DNA from: Streptomyces rimosus
Lineage (GTDB): Bacteria; Actinomycetota; Actinomycetes; Streptomycetales; Streptomycetaceae
DNA length: 64,000 nt
Direction: 5' to 3'
Assembly (NCBI RefSeq): GCF_008704655.1
Contig: NZ_CP023688.1
Span: forward strand, 5,943,501 to 6,007,500
The notes under the pieces: model-generated
Databases searched by the model: none
Told to the model about the DNA's origin: nothing
Seen by the model: the letters and a program-made list of their open reading frames with translations, nothing else
Made by a program: the position numbers and the translations under genes
Shown: one piece after another, positions 6,173 through 43,907 of the stretch
Numbering within the stretch: position 1 is the stretch's first letter
Layout of the letters: every line of letters begins with the position of its first letter

Positions 6173-7678
6173 TTACTTCCACACGATCTCGATCAAATCG
6201 GGTCGGAAAATCCCGCGCTGGGCCCCTCCTTTGCCGGCGGGTGCGACGACCACCGCTTCGATACTGCGCCCCATCTCCCGGCGTTTCATGTCCACCGTGT
6301 ACGCGTTCCATTCGCGGACAATGCGGGCCGCGGCGGAACGGGGCCGCGCCGACGGGGTGGCAAGGGCGGGAACCGTTTCCCTCGTCACCTTCTCCGCTTT
6401 CTCGAGGCGGCACATCTCGCGAGCGAACTCGGCCAGCGACAGCAGGCCGTCGGCCCGGAGCCGGCGGGCCTCCGCCTTGTCCTCCTCGATCCGCTTCAGG
6501 GTCCCCATCGAGCTGATGGATCCGGGATCCGCCGCCTCGGCGGACTTCGCGTCGCGAGCTTGCTTCATCAGGTGATCGAGCAGGGCTTTCTCCACGTGGT
6601 CCTCCAGCGGGGGACCACTGCGGGAGAGCTTTCCACACCCACCGTCCGCGGCACGGCAGTAGTAGTAATACCCGTGCTTTCCGAAGCTGGCAGTACCTCG
6701 CTGGTACATCCCGGAGGCCAGGCCGGTGCCGCACCTCGCGCAGCGCGCAATTCCCGTCAGCAGCCGCTTGGTGACCGTGGTACCCGCCCTCCGGCCCTTC
6801 TCCTTGCCCTTGCGGGAGTCGAGCTCGTCCACCAGCTCCCGCCACTCGCCGGGTGTCAGAATGGTTTCCCACCGTCCTGTCACCGGGGTACCGTCCGTGC
6901 GCTCGACCAGGTACTCGACAGGGTCCACCCGCCCCGACCGTTCGCGGATCTCCTGGGGAACGTAGGCGCGGTATCCGCAAAGCCGTGGATTCCGGAGCAC
7001 ATACAGCACGCTGCTGTAACCGATCGTCTTACCCGGTGGTGTCTGCGGCCCCCGCACCCCCAGCGCCACCCATTCGCGGTGGACCGTGGCAACGCTCTTG
7101 CCCGTCAATACGTCCTGGCGCGCCTTCTTGATGAGCGCGGCTTCCCCCTCGGCGATGTGCTCGGCATCTTTCCAGCCGAAGGCGCGCCGGCCCCTGTGCG
7201 GCTTTCCCTCCGTAGCCTCGGCGAGCTTCTGCCGTGCGACGCGTCGCGCCGCGTCGGAGGAGAACTTGTTGGCGACGGTCACATGGATACGGGCTTGGAA
7301 GCGACCGTCCGCGGTGGTGAGGTCGTAGTCACCGGCGGTGGTGGCGAAGAGCATCGGCCGGCGGCTCTGCTCGTAGATGTCGATGAGACGTTCGAGGTCC
7401 TGAGGCCGGCGGGCGACGCGGTCGATGTCGTGCGCGAGCATGCCGCTGATCACGCCGCGCTCAAGGTCGAGGACCATCTCCTCGAAGCCCTCGCGCCGCA
7501 CGCGACGTTTGAAGGCCGAGGTGTCGTTGTCCTCGTAGACACGGTGGATGGTGCAGCCCTTGGTCCGGGCGAGGTCGTACACGTCCGCGCGCTGCCGGAC
7601 CACGCCTTCACGGCCGTCCCGGTCGTCACCCGTCCTGCCACGGTCGGAAATGCGGACGTAGCCGCCTGCCTTGAGCAT
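6173..7678 (-). CDS. Large serine recombinase (integrase-type)
   Basis: A 501-residue site-specific recombinase. The N-terminal resolvase domain opens with GGYVRISD, where Ser11 should be the nucleophile, and continues with the conserved DNDTSAF and HDIDRVARR segments. A recombinase domain follows (about 160-260), then a zinc ribbon with CARCG and YYYYC...GGCG (about 330-370) and a Lys/Glu-rich C-terminal helical region. The start at 7678 was chosen because GGGGGA lies 6 bases upstream; the longer reading from 7813 has no support. No excisionase, replication or transfer genes adjoin it, so it may be the remnant of an integrative element or phage. Composition is somewhat less GC-rich than the neighbours. 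Confidence 0.9.
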   Translation of the reverse strand: MLKAGGYVRISDRGRTGDDRDGREGVVRQRADVYDLARTKGCTIHRVYEDNDTSAFKRRVRREGFEEMVLDLERGVISGMLAHDIDRVARRPQDLERLIDIYEQSRRPMLFATTAGDYDLTTADGRFQARIHVTVANKFSSDAARRVARQKLAEATEGKPHRGRRAFGWKDAEHIAEGEAALIKKARQDVLTGKSVATVHREWVALGVRGPQTPPGKTIGYSSVLYVLRNPRLCGYRAYVPQEIRERSGRVDPVEYLVERTDGTPVTGRWETILTPGEWRELVDELDSRKGKEKGRRAGTTVTKRLLTGIARCARCGTGLASGMYQRGTASFGKHGYYYYCRAADGGCGKLSRSGPPLEDHVEKALLDHLMKQARDAKSAEAADPGSISSMGTLKRIEEDKAEARRLRADGLLSLAEFAREMCRLEKAEKVTRETVPALATPSARPRSAAARIVREWNAYTVDMKRREMGRSIEAVVVAPAGKGGAQRGIFRPDLIEIVWK

Positions 7679-33987: not shown

Positions 33988-35967
33988 CTACGCGCCCGGC
34001 CGCGCCGCCTCCAACAGATCGCATACGCGGTCCGGGGGCACCGGGCGGGAGTACAGCCACCCCTGCCCGGTGTCGCAGCCGATACGGCGCAACCGTTCCG
34101 CCTGTTCGGCGCTTTCCACGCATTCCGCTGTGACCGTCAGGCCCAGCCGGTGTGCCAGGGACACCAGGGCCTCGACGATGGTCTCGTCCGCCGGGTTCGG
34201 GTGTTCCTGTGAGCGGAAGCCGCGGACGAAGGAGCCGTCCAGCTTCAGGACGGAGACCGGCAGCCGGCTGAGGTAGGCGAGGTTGGAGTAGCCGGTACCG
34301 AAGTCGTCGATGGCGATCCGTACGCCCATCTCGCTCAGCGCCTGGAGCGCCTGGAGCGGGCGGCCGGCCGAGCCCATCACGGCCGACTCGGTCAGCTCCA
34401 GCTGGAGCAGGGCCGGCGGCAGGCCGGTCTCGGCGAGGATGCCCGCCACGTCGGCGACCAGGTCGGAGTCCCACACCTGCCGTACGGCGACGTTCACGCT
34501 GACGAACAGCGGTTCGTCGCCGGGGCGGGCCAGCTGCCAGGCGCGGGCCTGATGGCAGGCGCGGGCCAGCACCCAGCGGCCGAGCTCGACGATCGAGCCG
34601 TTCTCCTCCGCCAATCCGATGAACCGATTCGGCGACAGTGTGCCGAACTGCGGATGCCGCCAGCGCACCAGCGCCTCGACGCCCTTCGCGCGCCCGTCGC
34701 CGAGCCCGACCAGCGGCTGGTACTCCAGCGTGAACTCGCCGCGGTCCACCGCCGGGCGCAGCGTGCTGGACAGGGCCTGGCGGGTCATCCGGTGGGCGTT
34801 GCGCTCGGGGTCGAAGAGCGTCCAGCGGGCCTTGCCGTCCTCCTTCGCCCAGTACAGCGTGGTGTCCGCGGCCTGCATCAGACCGGTGGCGGTGGTGCCG
34901 GTCGCCGCGCGCTCCACGACGCCGATGCTCGCGGAGACCGACAGCCGCTGCCCGGCCAGGTCGAACGGCCGCTGCAGCGCGTCCAGCACCCGCTGCGCCA
35001 GCTCGGCGAGCTGCTCGGTGCCGGCCGAGTCCTCCACCAGCAGCGCGAACTCGTCACCGCCGAGCCGCGCCACCAGATGCCCGCTGCCGCCGCGCGCCGC
35101 GCCGCGCCCGTCCAGGGTCTCGGCGCAGTGCGTCAGGCGCTGGGCCACCGCGCACAGCAGCCGGTCGCCGACCCGGTGGCCGAGGGTGTCGTTGACGGCC
35201 TTGAAGCCGTCCAGGTCGAGGTAGCACAGGCCGACCCGGCCCGTACCGTGCTGTTCGAAGGCGGCCGACTCCAGCGCGCCCGCCAGCCGCTCGAAGAACA
35301 GCGCGCGGTTGGGCAGCCGGGTCACCGGGTCGTGCATCTGGAGGTGGCGCAGCCGGGCCAGCAGGTCATGCCGGTCGCTGATGTCCGACACGGACAGCAG
35401 GACGCAGTCCTCGTCCGGCAGCGGTTCGACCGTCACCTCGGCCCACAGGAACTGCCCGTCGGGATGTTTCAGTCGTCGTGTGCAGCGCAGCCGGTCGCTG
35501 TGCCCGCACAGCACCTCCCGGTAGGCGGCCCAGATACGCGGGTCGGTGCCCAGTTCGGCCAGGTCGGCGGCGGTCGCCGCGACCAGGTCGTCCGGTGCCG
35601 CGCCGACCAGTTCGCCGAAGGCGGGGTTGGCGGCGAGGACCAGGCCGTCGCGGTTCAGTACGGCCAGGGGGACGCGGGCGGCCTGGAAGGCGGCGCGGTA
35701 GTCGCGCAGCGAGGCCGCCGAGCCGTCGCCGGCGTCCGGCTCGCCGCGGCCGGCCACGCGCGGCTCGTCGTGCGGGCCGGGCCGCCCGCCGGGCCGGGCG
35801 GGGCCGTCGGCCGTGTCGGTGCCGGTGGTGTGCGCGGGGCCGGAGGCGTCGTCCTGATCCCCGGCCGGTTCATTGGTCGGTTCATTACGCTCCGTCACCG
35901 CGGAGAGCGTCGTTCCGGGCGCGCGGCCCGTGCCGCCGGGGTATCCGCTCACTGCTCGCTCCCGCAT
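33988..35967 (-). CDS. cdgA: PAS-GGDEF-EAL cyclic di-GMP enzyme, CdgA-like
   Basis: A 659-residue soluble protein. After a disordered N-terminus (about 1-85), a PAS domain spans about 88-205, GGDEF about 215-380 with an intact GGDEF motif, and EAL about 390-655 with intact EALVRW, ELTESAVM and DDFGTGYS segments. Both active sites look complete, so it may make and break c-di-GMP. No membrane segments are seen. S. coelicolor cdgA has this architecture, sits in the corresponding region and is a BldD target; a BldD-type box lies 172 bases upstream here. It is convergent with the LLM gene. Confidence 0.88.
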   Translation of the reverse strand: MRERAVSGYPGGTGRAPGTTLSAVTERNEPTNEPAGDQDDASGPAHTTGTDTADGPARPGGRPGPHDEPRVAGRGEPDAGDGSAASLRDYRAAFQAARVPLAVLNRDGLVLAANPAFGELVGAAPDDLVAATAADLAELGTDPRIWAAYREVLCGHSDRLRCTRRLKHPDGQFLWAEVTVEPLPDEDCVLLSVSDISDRHDLLARLRHLQMHDPVTRLPNRALFFERLAGALESAAFEQHGTGRVGLCYLDLDGFKAVNDTLGHRVGDRLLCAVAQRLTHCAETLDGRGAARGGSGHLVARLGGDEFALLVEDSAGTEQLAELAQRVLDALQRPFDLAGQRLSVSASIGVVERAATGTTATGLMQAADTTLYWAKEDGKARWTLFDPERNAHRMTRQALSSTLRPAVDRGEFTLEYQPLVGLGDGRAKGVEALVRWRHPQFGTLSPNRFIGLAEENGSIVELGRWVLARACHQARAWQLARPGDEPLFVSVNVAVRQVWDSDLVADVAGILAETGLPPALLQLELTESAVMGSAGRPLQALQALSEMGVRIAIDDFGTGYSNLAYLSRLPVSVLKLDGSFVRGFRSQEHPNPADETIVEALVSLAHRLGLTVTAECVESAEQAERLRRIGCDTGQGWLYSRPVPPDRVCDLLEAARPGA

Positions 35968-37788: not shown

Positions 37789-38481
37789 TCACAGGGCCGG
37801 CGCGGAGCTGCCGGGTGCGTCGGCCGCTGGTTCGGCTCCGCCGGTGTGGACGCGGCGGGCGGCGCGTATGCAGGCCCAGAGCAGCGTGCCGGGGCCGGGC
37901 AGCCACGGATGGCGTACGTCGGGGGCGACCAGCCAGCGGGAGGTGGCGTCCGGGCGGTCGGGCTCCGGGCGGTCGGGCTCCGGGCGGTCGGGCTCCGGGG
38001 TGGGCGCGTCGCCGGTGGGGGCGGTGGGGGTGCCGTACGGCGGGTCCGGCCGCGCCGGGCGGTGCGGGAAGAGGGGCGGGACGGTCACCGCGTCGCCGGT
38101 GCCGTGGCAGAGCAGCGGCGGTACGGAGCCGGACCACTCCTCCCAGCCGAGCAGGGCGGGCAGCCGCCGGGCCGTGCCGGGCTCGGCGAACAGCAGGATG
38201 CGGCCGCGGTGGGTGGCGACCGGCCCGGACCCGGGCCCCGCGGTCCATAACCGGTCCACCAGCTCGCGGCCGAAGAGCGCGGGCGCGTTGATCACGTCGA
38301 AGACGCTGCCGCACGGGAGCGTGCTCGGCGCGTCCGGACAGGCCGCCCACCGGGCGTGCACGCTCTCCGGGCAGGGGTCGGCGGAGGCGAGCCAGTCGGC
38401 GCCGGCGAGGGTGACGTACGACGCGGTGTGGAACGTGGCGGAGGCGGGACGGCGGGGGTGCTCGGAGGGCCAGTCGCTCAT
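37789..38481 (-). CDS. Small Prim-Pol-like (bifunctional primase/polymerase N-terminal type) protein
   Basis: A 230-residue cytoplasmic protein. The core (about 10-130; WAACPDAPSTLPCG, FDVINAPALFGRELVDRLW, GPVATHRGRILLFAEPG) resembles the short Streptomyces proteins annotated as primase/polymerase N-terminal domains. I do not see the acidic catalytic residues expected of an active primase. A linker with three PEPDRP-type repeats follows, coded by 15-base repeats, and then a C-terminal segment with WLVAPDVRHPWLPGPGTLLW. ATG 38481 was chosen as the first start after the upstream low-complexity reading. No replication gene is adjacent. Confidence 0.65.
   Translation of the reverse strand: MSDWPSEHPRRPASATFHTASYVTLAGADWLASADPCPESVHARWAACPDAPSTLPCGSVFDVINAPALFGRELVDRLWTAGPGSGPVATHRGRILLFAEPGTARRLPALLGWEEWSGSVPPLLCHGTGDAVTVPPLFPHRPARPDPPYGTPTAPTGDAPTPEPDRPEPDRPEPDRPDATSRWLVAPDVRHPWLPGPGTLLWACIRAARRVHTGGAEPAADAPGSSAPAL
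37951..37995. repeat. Three tandem 15-base repeats inside the Prim-Pol-like gene
   Basis: CGGGCGGTCGGGCTC occurs three times in a row, in frame, coding for a charged Pro/Asp/Arg-rich linker. Length variation among strains is likely. Confidence 0.9.
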
Positions 38482-38921
38482 GGGCCCAGGTGTACCGGTA
38501 GGCGGTGTTCCGTTTCTGCGGAATGGCCGAAATCGGGACAGGACGGGGCGGTGTGGGGTATGTTTCCGCGCCCGCATATGCCAGTGGCCCATGATCGGTT
38601 GGGGGGATCATGAGGTGGGGTGGTCGGGGGTGTGGGTTGGGGGCGGTTCGGGGTGCGCGGATCGGGGTCGGGATTCGGGGGTGGGGCGTCGGGTGCCTGC
38701 CGGTTTCGGTCCGCGCGGGTGCCGGTTCTTTGTGCCGGTCCCCGGCCCCGGCTCTAGGGCCCGGTCGGATACCGGTCCCCGGCCCCGGCTCTAGGTCCCG
38801 GCCGGATACCGGTCCCCGGCACCGGTTCCAGGGCCGGGTCGAGTGCCGGTCCCGGTCGGACACCGGCCCGCATCCCCGCCGACCCCGGCCCTCATCCCCG
38901 CCGACCCGCCGCCCCCGGGCC
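38482..38921. other. Repeat-rich intergenic region
   Basis: About 440 bases without a credible gene. The left 110 bases hold the promoter of the Prim-Pol-like gene; the right half is a 37-base tandem repeat array followed by two copies of CATCCCCGCCGACC-like sequence (38871-38907). Confidence 0.6.
38731..38850. repeat. 37-base tandem repeat, three full copies and a partial
   Basis: Units begin at about 38734, 38771 and 38808 with the core CCGGTCCCCGGC, followed by a variable CTCTAGG part; a shortened fourth unit follows. The third copy has diverged (ACCGGTTCCAGG). It sits downstream of the leftward gene at 38922 and upstream of the gene ending at 37789. Function unknown. Confidence 0.85.
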
Positions 38922-39308
38922 TCAGTCCCTGGGCTCCAGGCGGTTGTCGCCGCTGCTGCGCAGCAGGCCGCGGCCGAACTCGACCATCTTCGCGGCGTAG
39001 TCCTCGGTCCAGTCGGCGCGCTCCGCGATCACGGCGAGCGGCAGCCGGTCGAAGCGCTTGGGGTCGGCGAGCTGGGCCGCCGCCATCGCCTGGAACTCCG
39101 TGGCCCGGTCCGCCGCCGCGCGGAAGGCGAGCGTCAGCTCCGTGGCGCGGGCGAGCAGTTCCTTGGGGTCCTCGATGGACTCCAGGTCGAAGAAGTGCTC
39201 GGGGTCGGACGTGGCCTCCGGAGGCTCGAAGAGCAGCGGAGCCGGTTTCAGGCGCCGGGGCGCCGGGGCCGTCCCGCGCGGGTCGGGAGCCGGTTGCGGC
39301 TCGGACAT
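38922..39308 (-). CDS. Small conserved protein of unknown function next to the nuclease-helicase operon
   Basis: A 128-residue soluble protein. A Pro-rich N-terminus (about 1-30) is followed by an acidic helical core (PEHFFDLESIEDPKELLARA, then TEFQAMAAAQLADPKRFDRL and IAERADWTEDYAAKMVEFG). No known domain is recognised. ATG 39308 has a good AGGAGG 7 bases upstream. It lies 227 bases downstream of the helicase gene in the same direction, so it may be an accessory to the operon or independent. Confidence 0.72.
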   Translation of the reverse strand: MSEPQPAPDPRGTAPAPRRLKPAPLLFEPPEATSDPEHFFDLESIEDPKELLARATELTLAFRAAADRATEFQAMAAAQLADPKRFDRLPLAVIAERADWTEDYAAKMVEFGRGLLRSSGDNRLEPRD

Positions 39309-39535
39309 GTACGTACCTCCTGGATCGTGTGCCGCGTTCCATTGTCCCGCGCCGCGCAAGTGCGCCTGGGGGTGCGCCCGTCCGGCCGGGCAGGGCGCGT
39401 CACTCGGCGCGCGCCTGACGATGCGCCTCGCACTGCCACCGTACGACCGTACGCCGCGCGCGAGGGCGAAAGTGCGCCGCGCCGAGGGACGAGAGCCCCC
39501 GGGGACAAGCCCGCCACACAGAGGCTGGAGCGAAG

Positions 39536-40924
39536 TCAGGTGTGCCATGCCACCCGATGTTCGTTCAGGTGCGCGAGCACCGCATGGTTCGCTTCCCAGC
39601 CGTCCGGGAACTTGACCGTGACGCCCAGTTGGACCGGTTCCGCCGACGGGTGTTCGTCCAGCAGGTCGGCGACGCCCGCGCGGCAGACGACGATGCAGGC
39701 GTGCCGGTGGCGGGAGGCGAGGACGCACAGGCGGCCGGTTTCCAGGTGGAAGGCGGTCGCGTCGGGGCGGCCGGAGAGCGGGTGGAGGAAGACCGTGACG
39801 TCGAACTCCCGGCCCTGGAGGCGGTTGGCGGTGTCCACCGCCACGCCGCTGACGCCGAGCCCGGCCAGCGCGGTCCGTACCGCCGCCGCCTGGTCGCGGT
39901 GCGCCGTGCCGACCGCGATCCGGTCGGCGGTCAGCGGCGCGGGGGCGGGGGAGCGCTCGCTGGTCGCCGCGCCGCCCCGGTCCAGCAGCCGCCGTACCAC
40001 CTGCGCGATGGCGTGCACCGCCTCCGGGTCGGTGCGCGGGGTGTGCCGGGCGGGCAGTTCGAGCAGGCCCCAGCCGGACTCGGCGGCCTCGTCCAGGACG
40101 CGGTCCACGCCCGAACCGTCCGAGGGCACCCCGAAGGCGAGCCGGCGGTCACCGTGGTCGGTGCCGCTGCGGAACGGCGTGTACGGGTAGAACGCGTCGG
40201 AGACCAGCCGCGCGGCGGAGGCAGGCAGCCGCCACGACACCGGCAGCCGGTGCTGCGGCAGGCCGGGGTTGTGCGCCAGCAGGGTGGTCACGGCGCTGGC
40301 CGACGGGTCGTAGGCCAGCCCGGCCCACTGGTCGGCGCCCACCACGCTGAACGGGTCCAGCTGTCCCGGGTCGCCCACGAACAGCGCCCGCTCGAACAGC
40401 CCGCCGACGGCGAGCAGCGCGTCCGAGCGCATCTGGTACGCCTCGTCCACGATGGCGTGCTGCCACGGCTCGTCGACCTTCGTGTACGCCCATTTGGCGG
40501 CCGTCGAGACGACGATGTCCAGCCCGGCCAGGTCGGCGATCTTGGCGGACGTACGGACGGCGGGCAGCTCCGCGAGCGCCGGGTCGAAGGCGCCCGGCTC
40601 GCTGCTGTGCAGCCGCCCCACCGGCAGTTCCGGGTCCTTCTCGGCGATGCGCAGCACAAGATCGTCCACCTGCGCGTTGGTCTGCGCGACGATCATCAAC
40701 GGGCGTCCGGCGGCGGCCAGTTCGCGGGCCGCCCGCACCACCAGCGTGGACTTGCCCGCGCCGGGCGGCGAGTCCACGACGACGCCGCGGTGCGTGCCGT
40801 GCAGCGTGCTGTGCACGATCGCGTCGGTGGCCTCGGCCGCCGCCGCGCCGGGATCGAAGGGTGCCGCGCCGTCCGCCCGCCGGGCGGCGGGCACCTCGGG
40901 GGAGGCGGAAGGGGCCTCGGTCAC
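39536..40924 (-). CDS. Superfamily 1 helicase (Upf1/RecD-like), third gene of the nuclease-helicase operon
   Basis: A 462-residue P-loop helicase. Motif I is SPPGAGKST (52-60), motif II is IVDEAY, motif III is VGDPGQLDPF, motif V is DTANRLQGREFDV and motif VI is CVLASRHRHACIVV. These patterns place it in SF1B near Upf1/AAA_11-12 helicases. It is short for the family, with little beyond the two core domains. The start is GTG 40924, overlapping the stop of the middle gene by 3 bases (GTGA), so it is tightly coupled. Inferred task: unwinding or translocating DNA for the nuclease encoded at the operon head. Confidence 0.87.
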   Translation of the reverse strand: MTEAPSASPEVPAARRADGAAPFDPGAAAAEATDAIVHSTLHGTHRGVVVDSPPGAGKSTLVVRAARELAAAGRPLMIVAQTNAQVDDLVLRIAEKDPELPVGRLHSSEPGAFDPALAELPAVRTSAKIADLAGLDIVVSTAAKWAYTKVDEPWQHAIVDEAYQMRSDALLAVGGLFERALFVGDPGQLDPFSVVGADQWAGLAYDPSASAVTTLLAHNPGLPQHRLPVSWRLPASAARLVSDAFYPYTPFRSGTDHGDRRLAFGVPSDGSGVDRVLDEAAESGWGLLELPARHTPRTDPEAVHAIAQVVRRLLDRGGAATSERSPAPAPLTADRIAVGTAHRDQAAAVRTALAGLGVSGVAVDTANRLQGREFDVTVFLHPLSGRPDATAFHLETGRLCVLASRHRHACIVVCRAGVADLLDEHPSAEPVQLGVTVKFPDGWEANHAVLAHLNEHRVAWHT

Positions 40925-42468
40925 AGGAAGTCCTCCGCGGTGACGGGGTCGGGCAGGTCGACGGGCAGAGTGTCGGCGGCGGGCGGGCCGCCGTGCGTCC
41001 ACGGCGTGTCCTCGGGGTCGGGCAGCTCCGGACCGCCCCGTGGCTGGTGCTCGAACAGGGTCCAGCACACCCGGTCGCCGGGCTCGGGCACCGACCCGGG
41101 CTCCGGGGTCTTGCCGCGCCCCATCCCGCCGGTCAGCCGCACGACCAGACCGGACGGGCCGTCCGTCGTGTACGCGACAAACTCGGCGGGCTGGCTCTTC
41201 CCGTCCGGCAGCGGCCGGTACAGCTTGCCGCCCTCGGTCAGCTGCGGCCGGTCGTCCGTCCACAGCGTCACCAGCGGGCGCGGCATCGGCCGCTTGCCCT
41301 GCGAATACGCCATCTCGACCCCGGTCACCTCGCCCACCAGGGCCTCTCCGGCGAGCCGCCGCGCCGCCATGACCAGCGGGTCGTCGAGCGCCTCCTGCGC
41401 GTCCAGCTGCGCCTGGGCGGTCTCCCGGGAGGACAGTTTCTGCGCGGCCGTGATCGCGTCGTCCCGCTTGGGCTGCGGCGGCTCACCGGCCCGTACCCGG
41501 TCGCGGTGGGAGGTGTACGACCATCGGTCGCGCTTCCAGCGGTCGGCCACCCGGGCGCCCTCCGGCAGGGCCCGCAGCAGGTCGATGCCCCGCCACACGG
41601 CGTCCCAGGCGGGACGCAGCTGGCTCTCCACCAGGTCGCGGATCTCGTCCTCGGCACCGGGCAGCCCGGCGTCGTAACGGGCCATCGCCGGCGCGAGGCG
41701 CTTGTTGTCGAAGGCCGGGTCCGTGGCGGGACCGGCCGGCGGGCACAGCAGCTGGCCGGCCGCGTCCCGTGCGGTCTCGGCGCGCTCGGCGGCCGTCGCG
41801 CCGTGCTCGCCCTCCGGCGGGTCTATCCAGGCCAGCAGCGCGCCGAGGTGCTGGTCCTCCAGGTTGCTCTGGCCGGTCGCCCAGTGACGGGCGAGCAGCC
41901 CGGTCATCGGCAGCAGCAGGCTCGCGCCCGGCACCCGGGCCCGCTCGCCGAAGTGCGTGAACCAGCGCCCGAGCAGCGGCACATGGGGCGGCGCGGGATG
42001 CGGGGTGTCCGGCTCCTGCTCGGCGGTCCGCCGGAAGCGCATGGACCGGCCCAGCAGACGTACGTACTCCACGCCCGCCGCACTCGGCACGATCACCTGC
42101 GGCGCGTCCGCGCACAGCTCGACCTCGACCGGCACCTTCTTGCCGGTCTCCGGGTCGGTCTCCTTGCGCTCCTCCAGCTCGACGGTGTCCGCGTACCCGT
42201 CCACATACGGCAGGACGGTCTCGGCCAGCTCGGCGAGGAAGGCGAACCGCAGGTCACGGTCGCGCGGCTGCGGCACGGCGAGCAGCAGCGGCTTCTCGCG
42301 GTCCGTACCGACCAGCGCGCCCAGCGGCGCGCCCGCCTCACCCGCGGTCGTCAACGGGACGAAGACCAGCGGCCGTTCGGAGAGGTGACGGTGGCGGACC
42401 GTGGCCAGCGGCTGCGCGCGGCCCGCCGCCACGGCCTCCATCCTGGCGAGCACTTCGATCAACGACAT
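40921..42468 (-). CDS. Unknown 515-residue protein, middle gene of the nuclease-helicase operon
   Basis: No family is recognised. It is a soluble mixed alpha/beta protein. Distinct parts are an N-terminal half with RPLVFVPLTTAGEAG and FAFLAELAETVLPYVDGYAD, a central segment with MARYDAGLPGAEDEIRDLVE and many Trp (WDAVWRGID, WKRDRWSY), and a C-terminal part with GEVTGVEMAYSQG and GDRVCWTLFE that may be a small beta domain. It overlaps the nuclease gene by 10 bases and the helicase by a GTGA junction. A GGAGGAGG ribosome site precedes ATG 42468. Its fixed place between nuclease and helicase suggests a structural or DNA-binding subunit. Confidence 0.8.
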   Translation of the reverse strand: MSLIEVLARMEAVAAGRAQPLATVRHRHLSERPLVFVPLTTAGEAGAPLGALVGTDREKPLLLAVPQPRDRDLRFAFLAELAETVLPYVDGYADTVELEERKETDPETGKKVPVEVELCADAPQVIVPSAAGVEYVRLLGRSMRFRRTAEQEPDTPHPAPPHVPLLGRWFTHFGERARVPGASLLLPMTGLLARHWATGQSNLEDQHLGALLAWIDPPEGEHGATAAERAETARDAAGQLLCPPAGPATDPAFDNKRLAPAMARYDAGLPGAEDEIRDLVESQLRPAWDAVWRGIDLLRALPEGARVADRWKRDRWSYTSHRDRVRAGEPPQPKRDDAITAAQKLSSRETAQAQLDAQEALDDPLVMAARRLAGEALVGEVTGVEMAYSQGKRPMPRPLVTLWTDDRPQLTEGGKLYRPLPDGKSQPAEFVAYTTDGPSGLVVRLTGGMGRGKTPEPGSVPEPGDRVCWTLFEHQPRGGPELPDPEDTPWTHGGPPAADTLPVDLPDPVTAEDFL

Positions 42469-43907
42469 GGGGCCTCCTCCGCCTGTGCAGACGCCTGCGC
42501 ACGGCGCGCCGCGGCCAAGGCTTCGCTACGAAGTGCGGCCGCGCGGCGCAGGGCCTCGGTGGCGGGGGCGTCGGGGGAGAGGTCCGTATCCGGGTGGTCG
42601 TCCGCGCCTGCCCGGCCGTGCGGGAGCGTCGTGGCGTCCGTACGCGCCTGGTCGTCCGCGCCTGCCCCGCAGCCCGTACGCGCCCGGCTGCCCACGCCCG
42701 TACGGCCATCGCCCGCACGGCCGCCTCCCGTACCGTCCTCCGCACGCCCCGTACCCGCCGCCTCCAACACCTCCGCGACCGTACGCAGCCCGCCCAGCTC
42801 GCCGCGCACTCCGCGGCCCAGTGACTCCACCGCGCCCGCGGCGCGGGACCGGCCGCGGCAGTGGAAGGCCAGCTCGCAGGCGGCCAGGCACTCCGGCGCG
42901 TACGCCGCGTCGACCGCTTTCACCGCCTCGGCCAGCTCTTCGGCGGACCGCGTCACCGTCTTGCCGTCGTCCGCGAGCCGCAGGTCGAAGGTGGTGCCGG
43001 GCGGGAGCTGCCCGGCGATCTCCTCGACCTTCGTGAGGCGCTGCAACTGGCGTCTGGTCGTCGCCAGTTGCTTACGGACGTCGACGGCCTCGGCGGTGGG
43101 GAGGTTCGCGAAGTCCTTCGGGCAGACCAGCAGCACCCGGTCGCGCACCGGCACCGTACGGCCGGTGGCGGCGGCCACCTGGGCGGCCACCCGCTCCAGT
43201 GCCAGGACGTACACCGCGGCCTGCCGGGCGGCGGCGCCCACCTTGGCCGGGTCGGCGGCGCCGTCGATCATCGGGAAGGACTTGATCTCCACGACCGTCC
43301 AGCCGCCGTCCGGATGCACCACGACCGCGTCCGGCTCCAGATAGGCGGGCGACCCGGCCACCTCCAGGGTGAGCATCGGGTGGTCCAGGAGGGTCCAGCC
43401 GCCGGCGGTGGTGGCCTCGCGCAGCGCCAGGGCCGTACGGGCGGCACGCCCCTCGGGACCGGCGGCGGAGAGGTCGGGGACGGCGACCGCGCCGGGCTCG
43501 GGCGGCGCCGCGCCGGCGTCCATGCGCTCGTGCAGCAGGCGCATCAGGTCGGCGCCGTCGTCCGCCTTCACGCGGGCCTCGAACGAATTGCCCCGGGCCA
43601 GGGCGAACTGCGACTGCCCGAAGGGCGCGGGGGAACCGAGGGCGCCCGCGAGCGCCGCCTTGTCGACCCCGGCGCCGTCCAGCAGGGAGCGGCGGCGGCA
43701 GCCCGGGTTGGCGGCCAGCGCGGCGAGCGCCCGGGCGTCCAGCGGCCGCGGCCGCACGCCGGGGCCGCGCAGCTCACTGAGCCGCTGCCGCAGCCCCGTC
43801 GTCGGCTGCGGCAGCGGAGGCGGCTGCCGCGGCGGTCGGTCGGCCGCGGCGGGTCGGCTGTCGCGGAATACGTTCACCCGCGGAAGTCTCGCATCCGTCA
43901 CTGACAT
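42459..43907 (-). CDS. Cas4/RecB-like PD-(D/E)XK nuclease with probable Fe-S cluster
   Basis: A 482-residue protein. The nuclease core (about 100-250) shows GNSFE with Glu110, Asp193 in EPDAVVV, Glu207-x-Lys209 in VVEIKS, and the RecB-family QAAVY motif (Gln229-Tyr233). Four cysteines flank it: Cys70 in NPGCRRR, then Cys340, Cys344 and Cys350 (CLAACELAFHC). That is the layout of the 4Fe-4S staple in Cas4 and AddB. The last 100 residues are a low-complexity Ala/Gly/Asp/Arg tail. ATG 43907 lies inside the PAP2 gene and has a weak ribosome site; GTG 43877 is the alternative. It heads the three-gene operon. Confidence 0.85.
   Translation of the reverse strand: MSVTDARLPRVNVFRDSRPAAADRPPRQPPPLPQPTTGLRQRLSELRGPGVRPRPLDARALAALAANPGCRRRSLLDGAGVDKAALAGALGSPAPFGQSQFALARGNSFEARVKADDGADLMRLLHERMDAGAAPPEPGAVAVPDLSAAGPEGRAARTALALREATTAGGWTLLDHPMLTLEVAGSPAYLEPDAVVVHPDGGWTVVEIKSFPMIDGAADPAKVGAAARQAAVYVLALERVAAQVAAATGRTVPVRDRVLLVCPKDFANLPTAEAVDVRKQLATTRRQLQRLTKVEEIAGQLPPGTTFDLRLADDGKTVTRSAEELAEAVKAVDAAYAPECLAACELAFHCRGRSRAAGAVESLGRGVRGELGGLRTVAEVLEAAGTGRAEDGTGGGRAGDGRTGVGSRARTGCGAGADDQARTDATTLPHGRAGADDHPDTDLSPDAPATEALRRAAALRSEALAAARRAQASAQAEEAPCR

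Follow-up and report, generated by a model that had tools for sequence, protein, structure and literature searches.

A trio of overlapping genes conserved in Streptomyces encodes a predicted Cas4-like nuclease, a middle protein and an SF1B helicase, a possible three-subunit counterpart of Dna2

Organization of the locus

We analysed a 64,000-nucleotide stretch of Streptomyces rimosus DNA (contig NZ_CP023688.1 of assembly GCF_008704655.1, positions 5,943,501 to 6,007,500), referred to as the window, with a focus on three genes that we call N, M and H. They encode, in this order, a RecB/Cas4-type nuclease, a middle protein and a helicase of superfamily 1 (SF1), and all of them lie on the minus strand together with a small downstream gene, S. 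The sequence-only reading of this DNA had described the trio as coupled by overlaps of 10 bases and of GTGA, and the coordinates, the strand and both overlaps agree with that description. The features are as follows.

42459..43907, minus strand: N, RecB/Cas4-type nuclease, 482 residues, conserved from about residue 41
40921..42468, minus strand: M, middle protein, 515 residues; AlphaFold model with predicted local distance difference test (pLDDT) 90.0 and predicted template modelling score (pTM) 0.87
41038..41475, minus strand: residues 332-477 of M, stalk helix and beta-barrel in the predicted model, like those of Ighmbp2, Senataxin and Upf1
39536..40924, minus strand: H, SF1B (Upf1/Dna2-type) helicase, 462 residues, GTG start; matches AAA_11, AAA_12, Dna2 (5eax) and the helicase half of TIGR03491 proteins
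42459..42468, minus strand: N/M overlap of 10 bases, from the gene coordinates
40921..40924, minus strand: M/H overlap, GTGA, from the gene coordinates
43698..43700, minus strand: Cys70 of N, the first of four conserved cysteines (119/119 rows, with 3 gaps)
43281..43331, minus strand: Asp193, Glu207 and Lys209 of N, taken as RecB-motif residues (119/120, 116/120 and 118/120 rows)
42858..42890, minus strand: Cys340-x3-Cys344-x5-Cys350 of N, each in 122/122 rows
40745..40771, minus strand: Walker A motif of H, SPPGAGKST, with G57 and K58 in 104/104 rows
38922..39308, minus strand: S, small protein P0004, 128 residues, 3' of H; open frame with no family match

The exact start of N is uncertain because an upstream PAP2 open frame, which ends at 43774, covers the first 134 bases of the gene and because conservation begins only near residue 41.

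The nuclease and the middle protein

None of N, M and S matched a model in Pfam, NCBIfam, PADLOC or PHROGs at an expectation value (E) of 1 or below. The AlphaFold model of N has a Cas4/EXO5-like nuclease fold, and conservation was followed over 122 N rows, that is, the window and 121 loci, four of which are duplicates. The three RecB-type residues that had been picked out by eye in the first protein are indeed present, and each is conserved in 116 to 119 of 120 rows. Cys340, Cys344 and Cys350 are invariant, and Cys70 occurs in every row that is readable at this position; N thus combines the fold of Cas4 with its four cysteines. The earlier comparison with the four-cysteine layout of Cas4 and AddB holds in that all four residues are conserved, but the spacing is Cx3Cx5C and not the Cx2Cx5C of Cas4, Dna2 and AddB. 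We predict that these cysteines hold an iron-sulphur (Fe-S) cluster. Alignment indicates that catalytic residues have been lost at five loci: Glu and Lys in L015 and L057, Glu in L074 and L155, and Asp in L142. At L015 and L057, N lies beside pPIWI-RE-type genes and has lost Glu207 and Lys209 while retaining all four cysteines, as if a structural or DNA-binding role alone had been kept.

The middle protein had been reported to resemble nothing familiar. This stands at the level of the family libraries, but structural modelling, which had been suggested for M, gave a model (pLDDT 90) in which the last ~145 residues resemble a stalk helix and beta-barrel, the module that connects nuclease and helicase in Dna2. 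The best structural match of this end is the stalk-barrel of Ighmbp2, at modest scores. A candidate stalk-barrel, seen as a model match of modest score, is encoded between the nuclease and the helicase genes, and the M barrel may be homologous to the stalk-barrel of Dna2-type enzymes.

The helicase

H matches Pfam AAA_11 and AAA_12. Its solved relatives rank with Dna2 first, followed by Upf1 and SMUBP-2/Ighmbp2 (single-sequence search, E 3e-7), and a five-row H profile matched Dna2 (5eax) at E 2.5e-10; in that match the first RecA half scores without the other, and the second aligns yet scores weakly by itself. The UvrD-helicase model (PF00580) reached only E 0.41, below its cut-off. Since the best solved relatives are Dna2, Upf1 and Ighmbp2, the sequence comparisons place H in SF1B, as a helicase of the Upf1/Dna2 type and not of the UvrD type of AddAB. 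The claim that a complete set of SF1 motifs is present in only 462 residues was borne out: 11 of the 14 motif positions checked are invariant across 104 H rows, and the three that vary are Ser59 (100 S, 4 T), Arg372 (99) and Glu373 (103). Other matches of H were to the NCBIfam models PLuB_AAA (E 1.9e-14, far under the cut-off) and TIGR00376 (E 7e-7, also under it), to phrog_25411, a PHROGs family of unknown function (E 4e-14), and, over part of its length, to the PADLOC 2.0.0 helicase models MkoC (E 5e-8), MkoA (E 1e-7) and GajB (E 0.008).

The subtype of H bears on two alternative explanations. One is that the trio is a divergent recombination enzyme of the AddAB/AdnAB type, with which it shares a RecB-family nuclease fold and the union of a nuclease and a helicase in one unit. 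However, it differs from AddAB, AdnAB and RecBCD in helicase family, protein sizes and gene number: H is a lone 462-residue helicase with AAA_11/AAA_12 and Dna2/Upf1 matches, not a ~1000-residue SF1A enzyme of UvrD/RecB type, and no second helicase-nuclease subunit of ~1000 residues adjoins the trio. We have therefore rejected these systems, as the earlier view that the trio fits neither AddAB nor RecBCD anticipated; the reading is largely refuted by helicase type and gene sizes, and we consider it highly improbable. The other is that a Upf1/Senataxin-type helicase, with M as a possible RNase H-like domain plus barrel, processes R-loops or RNA/DNA hybrids at transcription-linked DNA, which we regard as improbable.

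Co-occurrence and gene order

Profile searches with N, M and H were run over the same 394 genomes of the actinomycete class, with a threshold of E <= 1e-40 for H. M was matched in 70 genomes and N and H in 71 each, and the same 70 hold all three. The extra single matches are weak (N in G446, E 2.5e-4; H in G592, E 4e-44). The latter is a solitary relative of H (G592:C39:144314-145471, 151 bits), since searches of that genome gave no N and no M. Within the genus of the window, the trio is present in 39 of 40 genomes, and G504 is without any of the three. Across the phylum, 11 of 296 sampled genomes gave an M in a search with one sequence. Of 557 confirmed loci, the 80 listed with names all belong, by record title, to Actinobacteria (Actinomadura, Micromonospora, Nonomuraea, Nocardia, Frankia, Amycolatopsis and others).

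Gene order was read from six-frame profile maps of 122 loci, of which four are duplicates and several are cut by contig ends. In many families the trio has a further gene, Z, ahead of it, and Z-N-M-H is the order at 61 loci and at one more with Z in two pieces. N-M-H was seen at 13 loci, N-M-H-S at 10 and at a further 3 with M or H in two pieces, and N-M without H at 16. SbcC-SbcD lies divergent ahead of Z-N-M-H at nine loci and SbcD-SbcC behind H at four, including L125, where Z was not found and the Sbc scores are weak. The remaining five are cut or fragmented (ZNM, MH, NMHH, NMMMH and NMMH). In all 104 mapped loci holding the three genes, N, M and H follow one another in this order on one strand. 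N and M overlap in 74 of 117 measurable cases and M and H in 76 of 99, although choosing the nearest start favours overlap. Distances for N, M and H correlate at 0.93-0.94 over 99 loci, a value inflated by related sequences. Whether the genes co-occur across genomes had been named as a check on the trio, and the shared 70 of 394 genomes together with the order kept in 104 of 104 loci indicate that it is not a chance grouping.

In Micromonosporaceae, an N-M pair lies near a GGDEF-EAL gene (L017, L058, L105, L115, L116, L118, L121, L124, L126, L136, L138, L150, L161, L162 and L165) that is 41-44% identical to a PAS-GGDEF-EAL gene near the Streptomyces trio (window 33988-35898). In the two genomes of this family that were checked, G204 and G466, the helicase lies ~36-49 kb from the N-M pair.

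Z and the SbcCD neighbours

Z encodes a protein of ~190-300 residues, and the two members scanned had no Pfam match. It was found in one of eight genomes searched and not in that of the window. SbcD and SbcC, which were assigned with profiles built for this analysis, adjoin the trio at 13 distinct loci: 12 mapped ones (13 less a duplicate) and plasmid NZ_CP108489.1. Pfam was run on three of these, giving Metallophos in L016 and L122 and SbcC_Walker_B in L075. At L198 (NZ_CP027023.1, 13843-15901), the SbcD/SbcC matches fall in several short frames near the record end, so that the pair looks broken or cut; the Z-N-M-H beside it is otherwise complete.

Two trees were built, a quick one of M with 115 rows and a more careful one with 42 rows. 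On the quick tree, the Streptomyces core copies and the window form one set of 13 rows (Shimodaira-Hasegawa-like approximate likelihood ratio test 100), and the SbcCD label, carried by 12 rows, needs four changes, three of them forced by starred branches, against a shuffled mean of 11.6. The same tree joins the core set to the very long branch of L076, a kind of join that the tree program warns against. On the 42-row tree, the core set adjoins Z-bearing copies of another family (support 96/95), and this placement fits a loss of Z in Streptomyces.

Core and accessory copies

The sequence-only reading had left undecided whether the trio serves core repair or defence. The window copy is a core copy and is syntenic in the mapped Streptomyces loci: its flanks are common to all 14 core loci fetched, on a single side in L022 (contig end) and L084. 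Neither SbcCD nor Wadjet adjoins it. Among ten window neighbours, two matched PADLOC (C3a156, an oxidoreductase, E 2e-7; mad2, methyltransferase-like, E 8e-9), both through generic enzyme folds, and the other eight had no match. None of N, M and H matches a PADLOC 2.0.0 defence model over most of its length, the matches of H being partial.

A true second copy is carried by 5 of 39 Streptomyces genomes (G182, G246, G469, G513 and G618); in G193 and G555, the double match stems from a single fragmented gene. The accessory neighbourhoods described here are chosen examples and not a census, with L073, L074 and most other loci outside the defence-gene scans. Several of them hold SbcCD, Wadjet, pPIWI-RE-associated or restriction genes. 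The second copies in Streptomyces are those at L015, L016, L057, L059 and L060. Among them, SbcCD lies beside L016, together with an ImmA/IrrE-like regulator (by reading), and beside L059 and L060, of which L060 is placed ~15 kb short of the end of its 8.9-Mb contig. L057 is adjoined by a gene that carries pPIWI_RE_Y and pPIWI_RE_REase domains, and L015 by a near-identical one; these two loci are close relatives and not independent, and neither stretch showed the pPIWI gene as such. Further neighbours are a PDDEXK_1 protein and an SNF2/NOV_C helicase at L015, and a type III-like methyltransferase and a UvrD-like helicase at L057. The Actinokineospora copy (L075/L087) is adjoined by JetC2 (E 1e-120), DUF2397 and DUF2398. 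Matches in a plasmid collection came from three records: a pair of Streptomyces plasmids and a Nonomuraea record of 11.85 Mb. Profiles locate Z, N, M and H on both of the Streptomyces plasmids, with DUF3375, DUF4194, an ATPase and JetD annotated colinearly and directly behind H. In Micromonospora, a GmrSD_N gene lies between M and H at L094 and RhuM at L091, and at L095 HsdM lies behind H and the gene between M and H is GmrSD-like by reading. At L094/L095, an ATPase of the structural maintenance of chromosomes (SMC) type lies divergent upstream of the accessory operon.

These neighbours, namely the pPIWI-RE-type, JetC2/DUF2397/DUF2398, plasmid JetD-type Wadjet, GmrSD_N and HsdM genes, together with the PLuB_AAA match and the partial matches of H to Mokosh helicase models, are what would be expected if N-M-H, with Z, were a dedicated anti-phage or anti-plasmid system everywhere, the Streptomyces core copy included. 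Such a role for the core copy is hard to reconcile with a trio found in nearly every genome of the genus, between conserved flanks and beside neighbours with only generic PADLOC matches; to our knowledge, presence of this kind is unlike that of most defence genes. Moreover, three pattern matches among viral contigs were not confirmed with profile A5, and phage records held no match to the accessory M of L016. We consider a defensive role everywhere unlikely. The window copy is probably a core DNA-end processor related to copies that are used in defence.

The small protein that had been noted as conserved after the trio, S, is separated from H by 227 bases. It is kept in 13 of 14 Streptomyces core loci, but it is present in none of the 108 other mapped loci. 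GC-rich near-repeats lie directly past S (window 38700-38870), and a protein without Pfam match (window 37789-38481) is conserved beside S in several Streptomyces at ~50-56% identity. At window 6173-7678, a 501-residue frame reads like a site-specific serine recombinase, a possible remnant of an integrated element.

Comparison with known systems

The named enzymes that match the trio best are Dna2 and the single-chain TIGR03491 proteins. Dna2 (5eax/5eaw) is described as a RecB-type Fe-S nuclease followed by a stalk-barrel and then by an SF1B Upf1-like helicase of ~450 residues (PMC4716839). N, the candidate stalk-barrel at the end of M, and H come in the same sequence. N supplies a RecB-type nuclease with four cysteines, by conserved residues and model fold, and H the Upf1-like SF1B helicase domain. 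The trio departs from single-chain Dna2 in that it consists of three polypeptides from three genes, that M has ~330 extra residues ahead of the stalk, that the N model is without an oligonucleotide/oligosaccharide-binding-like domain before the nuclease, that the cysteines of N are spaced Cx3Cx5C, and that Z and SbcCD or Wadjet are neighbours in accessory loci.

TIGR03491 (RecB-like nuclease) proteins offer a second comparison. They are single-chain (open frames of 1131-1145 residues scanned), unlike the trio, and have RNase_H_2 followed by AAA_11/AAA_12 in three of three scanned and PDDEXK_1 in front in two of three. Their helicase half resembles H (E 7.6e-22) and their cysteine pattern is similar by reading, whereas profile alignment is weak for N (0.05) and M (0.35), and a domain-cut comparison of N and M gave no clear separation from reversed controls. 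Matches above the cut-off of the TIGR03491 model occur in 16 of 149 phylum genomes, and the genome of the window has none; neither N nor M (no NCBIfam match) nor H (other models only, all under cut-off) reaches it. The trio may thus function in the manner of a Dna2 or TIGR03491 enzyme divided into parts, although a relationship by sequence is shown only for H. Finally, N resembles Cas4, EXO5 and MGME1 in its modelled fold and differs from them in being coupled to M and H. No cas genes were found among 8 (Pfam) or 10 (PADLOC) window neighbours, a search that did not extend to CRISPR arrays or the rest of the genome.

Proposed function

Based on these observations, we think it fairly probable that N, M and H are the three subunits of a heteromeric, Dna2-like nuclease-helicase that acts on DNA ends. 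In this reading, the window copy serves a core Streptomyces function, and the accessory copies go with SbcCD, Wadjet and restriction genes. An enzyme that elsewhere is one chain would here be encoded as three overlapping genes in the same order. H would use ATP hydrolysis to translocate 5' to 3' on single-stranded DNA; the predicted stalk-barrel of M would anchor H to N and extend the DNA channel; and N, its channel held by a putative four-cysteine Fe-S cluster, would cleave the threaded strand. At loci with SbcD-SbcC (Mre11-Rad50), SbcCD may open or trim duplex ends and pass them to N-M-H, and Z, where present, would be an additional conserved partner. The window copy would act as a housekeeping processor of DNA ends or flaps in Streptomyces, and accessory copies probably work alongside Wadjet, pPIWI-RE or restriction systems to degrade foreign DNA.

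Dna2 is a partner of Mre11-Rad50 in end resection. We propose, tentatively and with less confidence, that the trio belongs to a bacterial counterpart of the Mre11-Rad50 and Dna2 resection machine: a Dna2 split three ways, with Z, would act in concert with SbcCD and, on mobile elements, be coupled to Wadjet-type systems. It would have been domesticated as a near-universal chromosomal DNA-end processor of Streptomyces, or else have been taken from that role into defence.

The chromosomes of filamentous actinomycetes are large and often linear. A nuclease-helicase that has no name yet is carried by 39 of 40 genomes of the genus would supply a missing component of actinomycete DNA-end metabolism. 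Elsewhere these genes occur beside SbcCD and Wadjet, which suggests that one machine serves both repair and the destruction of foreign DNA, and the trio may provide a concrete link between bacterial Mre11-Rad50 and a Dna2-like enzyme.

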